Shown here piece by piece: positions 17,542 to 22,002 of a DNA stretch of 35,673 bases. A model generated the notes under the pieces. That model was given only the letters and a program-made list of their open reading frames with translations, was not told the origin of the DNA and did no database searches. The position numbers were made by a program, and so were the translations under genes. The DNA is from an uncultured Roseburia sp. Lineage in GTDB: Bacteria; Bacillota; Clostridia; Lachnospirales; Lachnospiraceae. Within the stretch, counting starts at the first letter, position 1. Each line of letters opens with the position of its first letter. The stretch covers positions 1 through 35,673 of the forward strand of contig CAMUHN010000032.1 of assembly GCA_947088675.1 (NCBI GenBank), given 5' to 3'.

Positions 17542-20500
17542 TTATTTTGCTTTTACTTTTTTGGATGGTGCAGACAATTCTGTTCTCATATCCGCTTTTA
17601 AAGCATTTGTTCCGCATGCAACTACTTTATAGTAGTATGTCTTATTTTTCTTTGCTTTCTTATCGGTATATTTTGTGGTCTTTGTCGTACCGATCAGTTC
17701 GTAATCTTTATCCTTTTTCGTAGAACGGTAAACCTCATATGATTTGGCTCCGGCAACTCTATTGATCGTTACCGTCACTTTGCCTTTCGCTGCCTTAACG
17801 CTCTTGATGCCCGGCGTCGCCTTAAACGTAGCCGCTGCAGGCTCCGTAAAACCGCGTGTCATATTGGAACCGTTTGCAGCGTATGCAATTACATAATAGT
17901 AATAGGTTACACCCTGCTGCAGATTGCCCCGGTCTATCGCTTTTGTATCCACAATCGTACCGTTTATATTTTTGTACTCACGATACGGAACCGTATGAAT
18001 ACGCTCGTCATCATTGCTCTCTTTTGAAATCAGCTCCCAGTCGCCAATGGAACCATAGTTATATTTGTATACATTGTTATACCCGTCAGACGGACTTGTG
18101 GAGCGGTATACCATATAATAAGCTGCCCCGGAAACTTTTTTCCAGCTGACCTGGATCGCGTCGTGGGAAGCTCCCTTTGCGTCTTTGACTGTTGTATTTT
18201 TTGCCGTAACAGAGCCTGCTGCCATCAGATATTTTCCGGAAGCGCCCACTTCCTCTGTAAACTCCGTCCATTTGCTGCTGCCGTATGCGCGTACTTTTAC
18301 AGTTACGCTGCCGCCGTCCGCAACATTTTTAATCGAGTAGCTTGCTTTCTTCGTCGAAGCCTTTACCCAGTCTGTCGTCTCCGCCTTACCCTGCGCATTA
18401 TATTTGATATAACGCACTTCGTATTTGGTTGCATATTTATCGGCGTCCCATGTCACGCTTACTGTCGATTTGCCGCCGACTGCCGTCAGGTTGCGCGGCA
18501 CCTGAAGTTTTAACGTCACACCGTCTGTCGAGAAAATCTGTTTTGTCTTTTTGCCTTCCTTGTAGTTGGCAACTACTTTATAGATATATGTCACGCCCGA
18601 TGCAAGCTTTTTATCTGTATAGGAGACGGTCTTTGCTTTCTTGATTGTTTTGACAAGTTCCCACTTCTGATTTCCATAGACAATCCCGTTTCCATAGCCG
18701 CTCACTTTCGATACATCCGTATCCTCAGAGAACGTTGAAGTTCTGTAAATCTCGTATGACTTAGCATTGGCAACTTTCGTCCAGTTTAATTTAACGGAAC
18801 TCTTACTTGCCTCTTTTACTTTTAAGTTGAGATAATTGTTTACGCTTGTCTCAGCCTGAAAATATACATAATCGCTGTAATATGTCTTTTTTGTCACCGT
18901 ATTGTAATTGTACGCGCGCACACGATAACTATAAACGGTAGACTGTGCCAGACCGCGGTCTGCAAACTGTGCGGAATTTGTCGTTGCAATCTTTTTATAT
19001 TTGCCTTTCTTGTCGGCGCGTGAGATCTCATATCCGGTAATCGCGCTGGTTTTGTCTTCAAACGTAAGCGTAATACTCGTCTTGTCCGACTTTGTAGAAG
19101 GCTGGTTGATCGCTCTTACCATGGTACGCTTTGCAGATATCTTTGCCGCTTCCTTTACATCGGTATAATTGAGGTAAGAAATCGGTTTCATACCGCCTGT
19201 TGCTGAATCAAATACATTTGCGGTATACGGAACAGAATGCTGTGTGTCTCTCTTTGTGCTGTCATATACAACAACTGAGAAATAGTAGGTCTCATTGACT
19301 TCCAGACCCAAATCACTGCTGCTTACTTCCGAAACTCCTGTATAATCATGATATGATACTTTATTGTTCAGAATGTTCAATGTTTCTCTCAGTGAATCCG
19401 CTTCTGTCAGGTAATATGTTGTCATACTGCCGTTTTCATTCACATCCGCATATGGATTCGCAAGTTCATAAGTATAAGCCGGCGTAGCAAACGCACTCTG
19501 ATCCTTTGTATAATACAGACGGATTCTGGTATCTTCATCTACCGGGTTCCATACCAGATAAAAACTGCCGTCATCGTTCTTTTCCACTTTTAATCCTGTG
19601 ATATCCGGAAGAATCTGCGTTTCCTCTGCAATTCCGGCCGTCAGCTCAACCGGAGCGGACCATGCGCCTGTCTGGCCGGTAAACTCTGTCGCAGAAGAAT
19701 TTACAACGGCACACACCCTGAAATATACGTTTGTAACAGGTTTCTTCACCTCGGCAAATTTGCCCGGCATTACTTTCACATAGACAATATCATCATCGTC
19801 ATCATAATACGACACATAGGAAGCCGACTCGTCATATTTGCTCCACCGGCTCGACCAATAGGAAACGGTGCCATCCTGCACGCCGTTTACAAATCTAAGA
19901 TATTCATCCTCCTCCTCATCATACCGGAACGTATAGAGAGAGGAAGCAGCGCTTACATATTTGCCTTTTTCGGTCTGATAAAAGCTGCCGTTTACATCAT
20001 CCTGTACATATTCCGTTTTCGTATAAAGATTCAGGTCGCCTCTGGAAAATTCATAATATGTTTTCGATGCAGACACATAATCCAGTTCACTCCAGTCAGA
20101 ATCTTTCACTGCTGTCCAGTCGGCAACCGGCGCTGTGCTCTTATAAAACTCAATTTCATATCCATAGGCATCTGCTACGGCGCCCCAGGTAAGTTCATAA
20201 TTTTTCGCACTATTCGCCTTTACAGACACGCCTGTCACCTGCGGAAGCGTTTTCGTCGCCTGCGTCCACGCATAGGCATACGGTTCAGACCATTCTCCTG
20301 TCTTTACGATATTATAGGATGTTTCTGTTTTATAATATCTTACTTTCGGCTGATTCGTAGCCGGGTCGATCACCGGTCTGCCATACTCGTCCATCTCATA
20401 GACCGGAACTGCATTTTCCGTCTCCGTATAGTAAACGCCTCTTACCTGATAAGTGGAGGATTCTCCTGCAGCATATGCTTTCAAGCTGACATAACTCTCA

Positions 20501-21474
20501 TCCCTGGTAAACTTTTCGATCGTTCCCTGTGCCGTATCGCCAATCATCTCCAGATCATTTACAACCTGGTCATCCACTTTTACCTGATAACCGATATAAA
20601 GGCGCTTGCCATTGCTGTCAATTTCCGTCATGTTGGAAAGAGGCTGCCAGGAAACCAGTTTTGTTTTCTTTTCAAAAGAAATTTCATTTGAGGCATACGC
20701 ATATACAATTCTTTGTTCTGTCTCAACACCGCCCTCAACCTTTGTCACAATCTGCGAATAAATGCTATTATAACGTTTCCCGCTCGGCATCTCATACCAG
20801 TCGTAATCCGAGCTGTAATTCACCGGATCCGTCGGAACAAGTTTTTTCCCATAGGTGGCATAAGCATCCGCCCCTGCCGGCAGAACTGCCACTTCAAGAG
20901 CATTATCCGGTCTGATATACCATACATAATAGTCATAGGCATAAGTCGTATCATTCTGTTTGGAACGCGACGACAGAAAGTATGAGTTTCCGTTCATCTG
21001 GTAAAAACCGTACCCATCTGTCTGGGGACGATAACTGGAGCTGATCTCCTGCCAGGTTGCCCCCTGCGGCGCAGACGCAATCACCTGTACCTTGCCGGAT
21101 AATTCGCACAGAGAAGCCGTTTTATTTTCCGCAGATTCATAAAAATCGGTTCCGTTCTTATAAAGGCCCGTCGCAGGATCCAAAAGGTTTTCTTTTTGAC
21201 CTTTTAATACAACACTGTCATCAATAAGATTGACATATGTATAATCTGCTTTTGTCCGACCGTCATCCGCCACGATCGTACGCGCACTCGGCCGGCCTTT
21301 CAGTCCGATGACTTTCGAAATCCCTTTTTCGGACGCCCTGACCTGCTCTTCCATTTCCACGACTGCACCCTCATGTGCGGTCTGTGCTGCCAATGCCGGA
21401 TTGATATCCGTCATAATCATGCCTGCGGCAAGTATGACTGCACTGACACGCGCTGTAATTCCAACTTTTTTCAT
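17542..21474 (-). CDS. large secreted fibronectin type III repeat protein
   Basis: The 1310-residue protein begins with a Sec signal peptide (MKK..., hydrophobic core about 9-20, likely cleavage after the PALA segment near residue 29). Residues about 30-400 have no family I recognise and are rich in Tyr, Asp and Ser. After this come at least seven fibronectin-type-III-like modules (starting roughly at 405, 625, 785, 880, 995, 1085 and 1225), each with the typical ELTW or KLNW strand, a YEIYRS-like strand and a YSYRVRAYN-like strand. There is no LPxTG motif, SLH, choline-binding or other anchor, and the C-terminus is Lys-rich (KKVKAK), so it may be released or held by charge. The function is probably adhesion or polysaccharide binding, but this is inference. 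The start follows AGGAGG. A near-consensus promoter with a G23 tract precedes it. Confidence 0.85.
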   Translation of the reverse strand: MKKVGITARVSAVILAAGMIMTDINPALAAQTAHEGAVVEMEEQVRASEKGISKVIGLKGRPSARTIVADDGRTKADYTYVNLIDDSVVLKGQKENLLDPATGLYKNGTDFYESAENKTASLCELSGKVQVIASAPQGATWQEISSSYRPQTDGYGFYQMNGNSYFLSSRSKQNDTTYAYDYYVWYIRPDNALEVAVLPAGADAYATYGKKLVPTDPVNYSSDYDWYEMPSGKRYNSIYSQIVTKVEGGVETEQRIVYAYASNEISFEKKTKLVSWQPLSNMTEIDSNGKRLYIGYQVKVDDQVVNDLEMIGDTAQGTIEKFTRDESYVSLKAYAAGESSTYQVRGVYYTETENAVPVYEMDEYGRPVIDPATNQPKVRYYKTETSYNIVKTGEWSEPYAYAWTQATKTLPQVTGVSVKANSAKNYELTWGAVADAYGYEIEFYKSTAPVADWTAVKDSDWSELDYVSASKTYYEFSRGDLNLYTKTEYVQDDVNGSFYQTEKGKYVSAASSLYTFRYDEEEDEYLRFVNGVQDGTVSYWSSRWSKYDESASYVSYYDDDDDIVYVKVMPGKFAEVKKPVTNVYFRVCAVVNSSATEFTGQTGAWSAPVELTAGIAEETQILPDITGLKVEKNDDGSFYLVWNPVDEDTRIRLYYTKDQSAFATPAYTYELANPYADVNENGSMTTYYLTEADSLRETLNILNNKVSYHDYTGVSEVSSSDLGLEVNETYYFSVVVYDSTKRDTQHSVPYTANVFDSATGGMKPISYLNYTDVKEAAKISAKRTMVRAINQPSTKSDKTSITLTFEDKTSAITGYEISRADKKGKYKKIATTNSAQFADRGLAQSTVYSYRVRAYNYNTVTKKTYYSDYVYFQAETSVNNYLNLKVKEASKSSVKLNWTKVANAKSYEIYRTSTFSEDTDVSKVSGYGNGIVYGNQKWELVKTIKKAKTVSYTDKKLASGVTYIYKVVANYKEGKKTKQIFSTDGVTLKLQVPRNLTAVGGKSTVSVTWDADKYATKYEVRYIKYNAQGKAETTDWVKASTKKASYSIKNVADGGSVTVKVRAYGSSKWTEFTEEVGASGKYLMAAGSVTAKNTTVKDAKGASHDAIQVSWKKVSGAAYYMVYRSTSPSDGYNNVYKYNYGSIGDWELISKESNDDERIHTVPYREYKNINGTIVDTKAIDRGNLQQGVTYYYYVIAYAANGSNMTRGFTEPAAATFKATPGIKSVKAAKGKVTVTINRVAGAKSYEVYRSTKKDKDYELIGTTKTTKYTDKKAKKNKTYYYKVVACGTNALKADMRTELSAPSKKVKAK

Positions 21475-21570
21475 TGTAAATTACGCCTCCTTTTTGTTCT
21501 GCAGATATCGGAACATTCCTTTCGGTCCGATATCGTTGTCTCTCTGTAACATCCATTTTCATAACTTCCT

Positions 21571-21596
21571 CACAGAATTGTCACAGAATTGTCACA
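21571..21596. repeat. tandem 11-bp direct repeats at the FnIII transcription start
   Basis: CACAGAATTGT occurs twice head to tail (21571-21581 and 21582-21592) and is followed by CACA. On the minus strand this reads as repeated TGTGACAATTC units beginning about 5 bases after the -10 box, where a repressor operator could lie. Confidence 0.5.
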
Positions 21597-21600
21597 AATC

Positions 21601-21628
21601 ATTATACACCTTTCTTAGAATTCGTCAA
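21601..21628 (-). promoter_or_regulatory. strong sigma-A type promoter of the FnIII gene
   Basis: On the minus strand TTGACG (21628-21623) is separated by 16 bases from a perfect TATAAT (21606-21601). Transcription would begin near 21594, giving a leader of about 120 bases that includes a 9-bp hairpin (21504-21512 with 21526-21534) about 15 bases before the ribosome site. Confidence 0.8.
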
Positions 21629-21634
21629 TTGAAA

Positions 21635-21657
21635 CCCCCCCCCCCCCCCCCCCCCCC
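21635..21657. repeat. homopolymer tract of 23 C (23 G on the coding strand)
   Basis: An uninterrupted run of 23 C on the plus strand ends 6 bases upstream of the -35 box of the FnIII promoter, and a 9-bp hairpin GAAAAATTG-CA-CAATTTTTC (21658-21677) abuts its other end. Runs this long are prone to slipped-strand length change. The remaining non-coding DNA to 22002 is AT-rich and shows no further feature that I can support. Confidence 0.95.
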
Positions 21658-22002
21658 GAAAAATTGCACAATTTTTCTGTATTTATTTATGCATTTTTAC
21701 TTGTTCCAATTCTTTTTCATGCATCTCCTTGTACTATATTACTGGTTTTTGTAATCTTTATCGTTTTATATTTGGCAAAAATATCCAAAAATCTAGCAAA
21801 ACGATGTCATGCTATTTTCTTATTAATGGGGAAATTATAAGACAGAAAAATAATCATTGAAAGAAATTCCTGATAAGCAGAACCCTTACTTCTTATCCAT
21901 TATTAACTCTATCTGGATTCAATCATACATCACAATACAATTCCTGTGCAGCCGTCAGAAAAAAGATCAACCTGCAGGAAAAAATTCGTCAAAAACACAA
22001 TT

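Follow-up and report, generated by a model that had tools for sequence, protein, structure and literature searches.

A poly-G tract of differing length beside a conserved Roseburia promoter, and poly-G promoter spacers in Lachnospiraceae: candidates for slippage-tuned expression of exported proteins

Introduction

In Helicobacter pylori, the sabA gene is described, in the sections cited here, as having a T-tract beside the -35 element that changes the position of UP-like elements with respect to the core promoter and acts as a rheostat (PMC4081817). The corresponding sections on Bordetella pertussis place a C-stretch at fim2, fim3, and fimX and a tract five bases upstream of the -35 element of bhuR (PMC1891110). 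The principle of a tract within the promoter spacer, with the fimbriae of Haemophilus influenzae as the example, is set out in the introduction of a report on Bifidobacterium breve; the parts of that report used here describe a G-tract pilus switch that works by intragenic frameshift, with measured slippage, and mention further promoter-spacer tracts (PMC9187656).

We analyzed a 35,673-nucleotide stretch of DNA (hereafter, the window; contig CAMUHN010000032.1 of GenBank assembly GCA_947088675.1) from an uncultured Roseburia sp., in which a long G tract adjoins the promoter of a gene for a 1310-aa protein. As far as the cited sections go, the locus resembles sabA in having a homopolymer directly upstream of the -35 element, an intact core promoter, and a predicted exported product, and the A-tract-rich DNA upstream is a candidate counterpart of the A-box or UP-like DNA there, but the locus differs in that the tract consists of G instead of T, belongs to another phylum, has a palindrome beside it, and is known here from sequence alone. 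In the Bordetella examples, as described, a homopolymer is likewise located within a promoter or immediately upstream of it, and the distance of the bhuR tract to the -35 element is almost equal to that in the window; however, the fim tracts are discussed together with an activator-binding region, and no activator is known for the window locus. The same slippage principle would apply as in spacer-tract systems of the H. influenzae type, but the window tract lies outside the spacer, and the distance between -35 and -10 stays constant. The B. breve switch also concerns a gut commensal, a G tract, and an exported structure; in contrast, it is an intragenic frameshift switch from another phylum whose slippage was measured, whereas the window tract is in the promoter region.

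Discussion of phase variation in gut commensals centers mostly on DNA inversion. The portions used of a 2025 review describe invertible promoters for C. difficile, and the string 'Lachnospir' is absent from them (PMC11868660). The cited part of a 2010 survey deals with tracts within coding genes (PMC2831843), and that of another report deals with phase-variable capsules in Bacteroides (PMC12413058). Among the matches listed in our own search, judged from titles and the starts of abstracts in mainly open-licence literature, none concerned phase variation by homopolymer tracts in Roseburia or in Lachnospiraceae at large, which is weak evidence of absence.

Results

The original prediction placed 23 consecutive G residues on the minus strand, 6 nt upstream of a TTGACG-16-TATAAT promoter, and both the coordinates and our promoter scan agree with this (Table 1). 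The G residues are on the coding strand of the 1310-aa protein gene, and the minus-strand order is GAAAAATTGTGCAATTTTTC-G23-TTTCAA-TTGACG-16 nt-TATAAT. Apart from this tract, G/C runs in the window reach 6 at most, and when the window was simulated 300 times with a first-order model, the longest run was 14 at most; the tract is thus not a product of chance, being far beyond chance length, and it occupies a regulatory position.

Table 1. Features at the G-tract locus of the window and related loci in other genomes
Feature	Position or loci	Strand	Remarks
1310-aa predicted exported protein	17542..21474	-	FnIII and GH85_C; beta-rich N-terminal region of unknown family
Ribosome-binding site AAGGAGG	21486..21492	-	read from sequence
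Three TGTGA direct repeats	21570..21596	-	11-bp period; just after -10, over expected transcription start
-10 element TATAAT	21601..21606	-	TAAAAT in sister; spacer 16 in both
-35 element TTGACG	21623..21628	-	TTGACA in sister
Linker TTTCAA, tract to -35	21629..21634	-	TA in sister
G23 homopolymer	21635..21657	-	G13 at same place in sister
Palindrome GAAAAATTG-TG-CAATTTTTC	21658..21677	-	abuts tract; AT-rich; UP-like or operator candidate
A-tract-rich stretch	21658..21787	-	periodicity peak at ~10.5 bp
Cro/C1-type HTH_26 gene, 64 aa	22003..22197	-	upstream of tract
Spacer-tract loci	L110-L149, L175-L188		G8-13, usually 8-11 (once 13); family and genus genomes
Sortase / LCP / SPKTG module loci	L150, L152, L153, L179, L177		genus genomes

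The scan gave 11/12 consensus matches for the promoter (21628..21601), the strongest of seven promoter-like sites between positions 21000 and 22500. Since shuffled sequences yield 4.0 such sites (sd 1.9), the main support for this promoter is its conservation in a sister species. The ATG of the 1310-aa reading frame lies 126 nt past the end of TATAAT, and no promoter was seen by eye on the other strand.

The sister is a Roseburia metagenome-assembled genome (G051; contig CAMUGE010000024.1) that carries the same gene, with a protein 87% identical to that of the window. At the same place, it has AAAAATTGTGCAATTTTTC-G13-TA-TTGACA-16-TAAAAT, and the 19 nt of AAAAATTGTGCAATTTTTC that flank the tract are identical in the two genomes. 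The tract ends 6 nt before the -35 element in the window and 2 nt before it in the sister. Comparison of related genomes, which the original prediction had proposed as a check, thus finds the tract retained and its length not fixed, at G23 vs G13, with one genome per species and both of them draft assemblies. Among five further homologues (G050, G042, G020, G005, and G024), none has such a tract in the 420 nt upstream; a sixth, G057, was left out, its upstream region being cut by a contig end. The tract is therefore lineage-specific and, as far as these genomes go, appears confined to the two-species lineage of the source genome and its sister.

Under one alternative, a promoter farther upstream would give a longer transcript, and the tract, as part of its 5' untranslated region, would act at the RNA level. 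In the same genome, a leucine-rich repeat (LRR) gene is preceded by a G tract that follows a TATAAT at a distance of about 30 nt, which would fit such a role, but our scan of the interval from the HTH gene to the tract found a single promoter site in the direction of the gene, with 9/12 matches, and the 11/12 promoter conserved in the sister is situated between the tract and the gene. We regard this alternative as extremely improbable.

The source genome (G000) is a draft of 122 contigs and 3.17 Mb, 87.58% complete, in which the window is contig C32. Counting both strands, it contains five G runs of at least 10 nt: G10, G12, G14, G23, and G46. The last of these (L025:1501-1546) stops exactly where contig C105 ends and is probably a sequencing run-on; because of this resemblance, the exact number of 23 in our tract is not safe. 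Run-on of Illumina reads at G tracts is described in the cited part of the B. breve report ('G's end'; PMC9187656). Poly-G at the ends of reads would not, however, be expected to connect the same pair of flanks in both genomes. Since the sister has the same gene, 19-nt flank, and promoter spacing, together with G13, the tract is, as judged from the two assemblies, real and different in length between the species, and the exact 23 is a draft-assembly value. Of the concern that the tract might be an assembly artefact, then, only the part that touches the count seems to survive.

These considerations bear on a second alternative, namely, that the tract is a neutral or mildly harmful expansion, inflated in length by sequencing or assembly, with no regulatory role. 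The draft state of the genome, the G46 at a contig end, the published run-on, and the presence of the tract in two species only are all consistent with it. It is opposed by the joining of the same flanks through a G tract in two separate genomes, by the position of the tract between conserved elements, and by the recurrence of genus G runs in promoter spacers (see below). We consider such an expansion unlikely.

Long G/C tracts are also present elsewhere in the two genomes and in the genus, where G runs of at least 11 nt occur in 20 of 62 genomes (41 runs listed), several at contig ends. Positions at gene junctions, within coding sequences, and in 5' regions are usual for slippage (contingency) loci. 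The frame states of the tract-bearing genes given here are uncertain, as they come from draft assemblies. In the source genome, a G14 (L107:681-694, on contig C63) lies inside a BspA-like LRR gene, the two parts of which are in different frames; a G12 (L106:5773-5784) is found where a DUF1919 gene meets an MptE-like gene, the MptE-like match being below the curated cut-off; and a C10 (L108) occurs early in an acyltransferase gene that is in frame. The same LRR gene also has a tract in its 5' region, G9 in the source genome vs G15 in the sister (L151), between short inverted repeats seen by eye; the G15 precedes the gene and follows a TATAAT at a distance of about 30 nt. The sister also has a G11 (L098:1521-1531) in a gene split between frames, the larger part of which has no Pfam match. 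In another genome, G042, two similar genes (L074 and L087) have G13 and G11, by eye about ten codons past their likely starts, and these could be slippage-controlled paralogues.

We then considered the DNA around the core promoter. A hairpin had been predicted on the far side of the tract, and there is indeed a palindrome at that place, with arms of 9 bp; together with its surroundings, 26 nt in all, it folds as DNA at -4.8 kcal/mol, and none of 200 shuffles folds as well. As an operator of a wider regulon, the palindrome was rejected: it has one copy each in 4 of 62 genus genomes, and the reversed pattern also gives 4 hits. In the sister, A-tracts upstream of the G tract are spaced at 10.5 bp with a periodicity that none of 1,000 dinucleotide shuffles reached. 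The window shows a weak peak at the same ~10.5 bp, which is not significant (reached by 96/1,000 shuffles), and in the tractless promoter of G050 the periodicity was reached by 132/1,000 shuffles. A search of plasmids with the region gave no match.

The triple TGTGA repeat, a possible response-regulator site, is exact in the window and at the sister orthologue. The G042 homologue has it in its upstream region with a single mismatch, and G050 gave no match. A search of six chosen genomes for a wider TGTGA regulon, allowing at most one mismatch, did not sustain that idea: five of the six contain it, but apart from the orthologues the sites are few and scattered, and the reversed control gave one hit.

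It is conceivable that the tract sets the spacing of an activator or repressor, in the manner of the Bordetella fim promoters: a protein attached to the palindrome, or to a site farther upstream, would have to be on the right face of the helix, and the tract would determine its distance. Separate regulated control would then come from the TGTGA repeats that follow the -10 element. Conservation in the sister of both the tract-adjoining palindrome and the triple repeat (the latter also upstream of the G042 homologue, as above) and the HTH gene upstream in the window are in keeping with this, but the palindrome is not above control in the genus, so no regulon is visible. We think this reading rather unlikely, if worth keeping in mind.

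An on/off switch of the spacer type was rejected for the window locus. The tract is not between the -35 and -10 elements, no -10 element follows it (sister, TATTGACA; window, TTTCAATTGACG), and the TTGACR-16-TAWAAT next to it is conserved. The source genome has no spacer-tract match at all.

The gene product had been described as a giant secreted FnIII protein and as a surface or secreted gut adhesin. Its length, its fn3 domains, and an N-terminus that by eye resembles a signal peptide agree with the first description; the second is qualified by the C-terminus, where no sortase motif was seen by eye. At the curated Pfam cut-offs, only fn3 and GH85_C domains pass. No GH85 catalytic domain was found in that search, and the assignment of the product as a GH85 endohexosaminidase was dropped. 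An NCBIfam search returned nothing at E 0.01, and a sequence search of the PDB returned two FnIII-type chains only. The AlphaFold model of residues 31-590, built from 6 sequences, is mostly beta, with a mean pLDDT of 61 and with residues 377-560 below 50. As far as this evidence goes, the product appears to be an exported, beta-rich, FnIII-containing protein, and a role as an adhesin would be a guess.

To place the locus in its family, we searched 397 Lachnospiraceae genomes, drawn evenly, for at least eight G residues between a TTGAC -35 element and a TAWAAT -10 element. Such spacer tracts were found in 31 genomes (41 match lines, 40 distinct tracts), and the reversed pattern was found in none. 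The reversed pattern controls for base composition, and real promoters are commoner than reversed ones; better yardsticks are the C-tract version of the search and the genomes outside the family. The C-tract version matched 2/397 genomes (reversed, 0), a comparison that is uncorrected for the frequency of G vs C runs upstream of genes. In a draw across the phylum, G spacer tracts were found in 6/398 genomes (7 lines; reversed control, 1 hit), and as 0/5 genomes of the family itself matched in that draw, the figure outside the family is 6/393. Within the genus, where TANAAT was allowed as the -10 element, 12/62 genomes matched (14 lines, 13 tracts; reversed control, 0). We conclude that, across the family, G tracts are strongly associated with promoter spacers.

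Among the 53 distinct sites from the family and genus, the spacer is 16-20 nt in 47, with a mode of 19, and the tract touches the -10 element in 42. Homologous promoters retain the tract at lengths that differ between species, with G11 and G9 in one pair (L133/L145) and G11 and G10 in another (L176/L179), and two paralogues in one genome have spacer tracts of G9 and G10 (L127/L142).

A conceivable alternative to slippage is that the window tract is a structural element, acting as a G-quadruplex or roadblock upstream of the promoter. The strong preference for G over C in spacers (31 vs 2 of 397 genomes) could be taken that way, and 23 G residues on one strand can form quadruplex DNA, but the 8-11 G of the spacer tracts are few for a quadruplex, and the window tract differs in length between the sisters. 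We hold a purely structural role to be very unlikely.

First genes behind the family tracts more often encode export-like products than other genes there. An export-like N-terminus was called for 24/31 first genes vs 25/84 other open reading frames (ORFs) at the same loci (Fisher p 5.7e-6); the call is our own hydrophobicity rule, which is crude and errs visibly both ways, the background consists of mechanical ORFs, and the count excludes 9 of the 40 family tracts, for which no ORF was called within 250 nt. With the genus loci added, the proportions were 31/42 vs 32/110 for ORFs of at least 80 aa, 29/39 vs 25/74 at 150 aa, and 29/38 vs 20/55 at 200 aa (p 2.7e-4). In three genus genomes (G003, G004, and G033), homologues of a sortase, an LCP-type protein, and a surface protein ending in SPKTG all occur behind a spacer tract; G021 has the LCP-type and SPKTG-ended homologues there, and G006 has the LCP-type homologue in the stretch examined. 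The sortase and LCP names are readings of the sequences, not results of a family search.

The layout seen in the window, with the tract upstream of the -35 element, was found in 2/397 family genomes, the source genome and G254 (reversed control, 0). The corresponding genus search, for at least eight G residues at most 10 nt upstream of TTGAC...TANAAT, matched 2/62 genomes, which are the two orthologues (reversed control, 0). The first gene in G254 looks by eye glutathione-peroxidase-like and not exported, so that the upstream layout does not in itself go with export of the product. In the family, G tracts are more often located within the spacer, and the upstream layout of the window is rare.

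Discussion

Where the original prediction proposed a phase-variation switch at this locus, the position of the tract proved to be kept, its length to differ between species, its core promoter to be conserved, and other long G tracts to be present in the genome and the genus. These comparisons, made at the level of sequence, support the proposed interpretation in part, and they favor a graded device. We lean toward a slippage-driven rheostat similar to that of H. pylori sabA. In this model, replication slippage would alter the number of G residues between the AT-rich, A-tract-bearing upstream DNA and an intact core promoter of the sigma-70 type. A change in length would alter both how far the upstream region lies from the -35 element and its rotational position with respect to that element, and this shift may alter its contact with the alpha subunits of RNA polymerase or with a bound activator. 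The giant exported FnIII protein would then be produced in amounts that vary from cell to cell with tract length. Because slippage here leaves the spacing between -35 and -10 unchanged, an on/off change of that spacing is not the mechanism, and by analogy a graded effect through the upstream DNA would be the natural reading. G tracts are mechanically unlike T tracts, and the analogy with sabA may not hold in detail; a biological benefit of tract variation is likewise presumed.

At the level of the family, we consider it probable that Lachnospiraceae possess widespread, hitherto unreported poly-G phase-variable promoters, in which the tract usually occupies the spacer and the gene mainly encodes an exported protein, with the window locus as the rarer, upstream rheostat form. 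If so, mixtures of tract lengths would be expected within single colonies and in long-read gut metagenomes, as would a promoter output that depends on tract length. Such a mutable code would be blurred by short-read and metagenome assemblies. Gut commensal clostridia would then run slippage-based surface variation like that of mucosal pathogens, and, if G-tract slippage tunes the exported proteins of Lachnospiraceae, a simple mutable code would diversify both their surface and their secretome.
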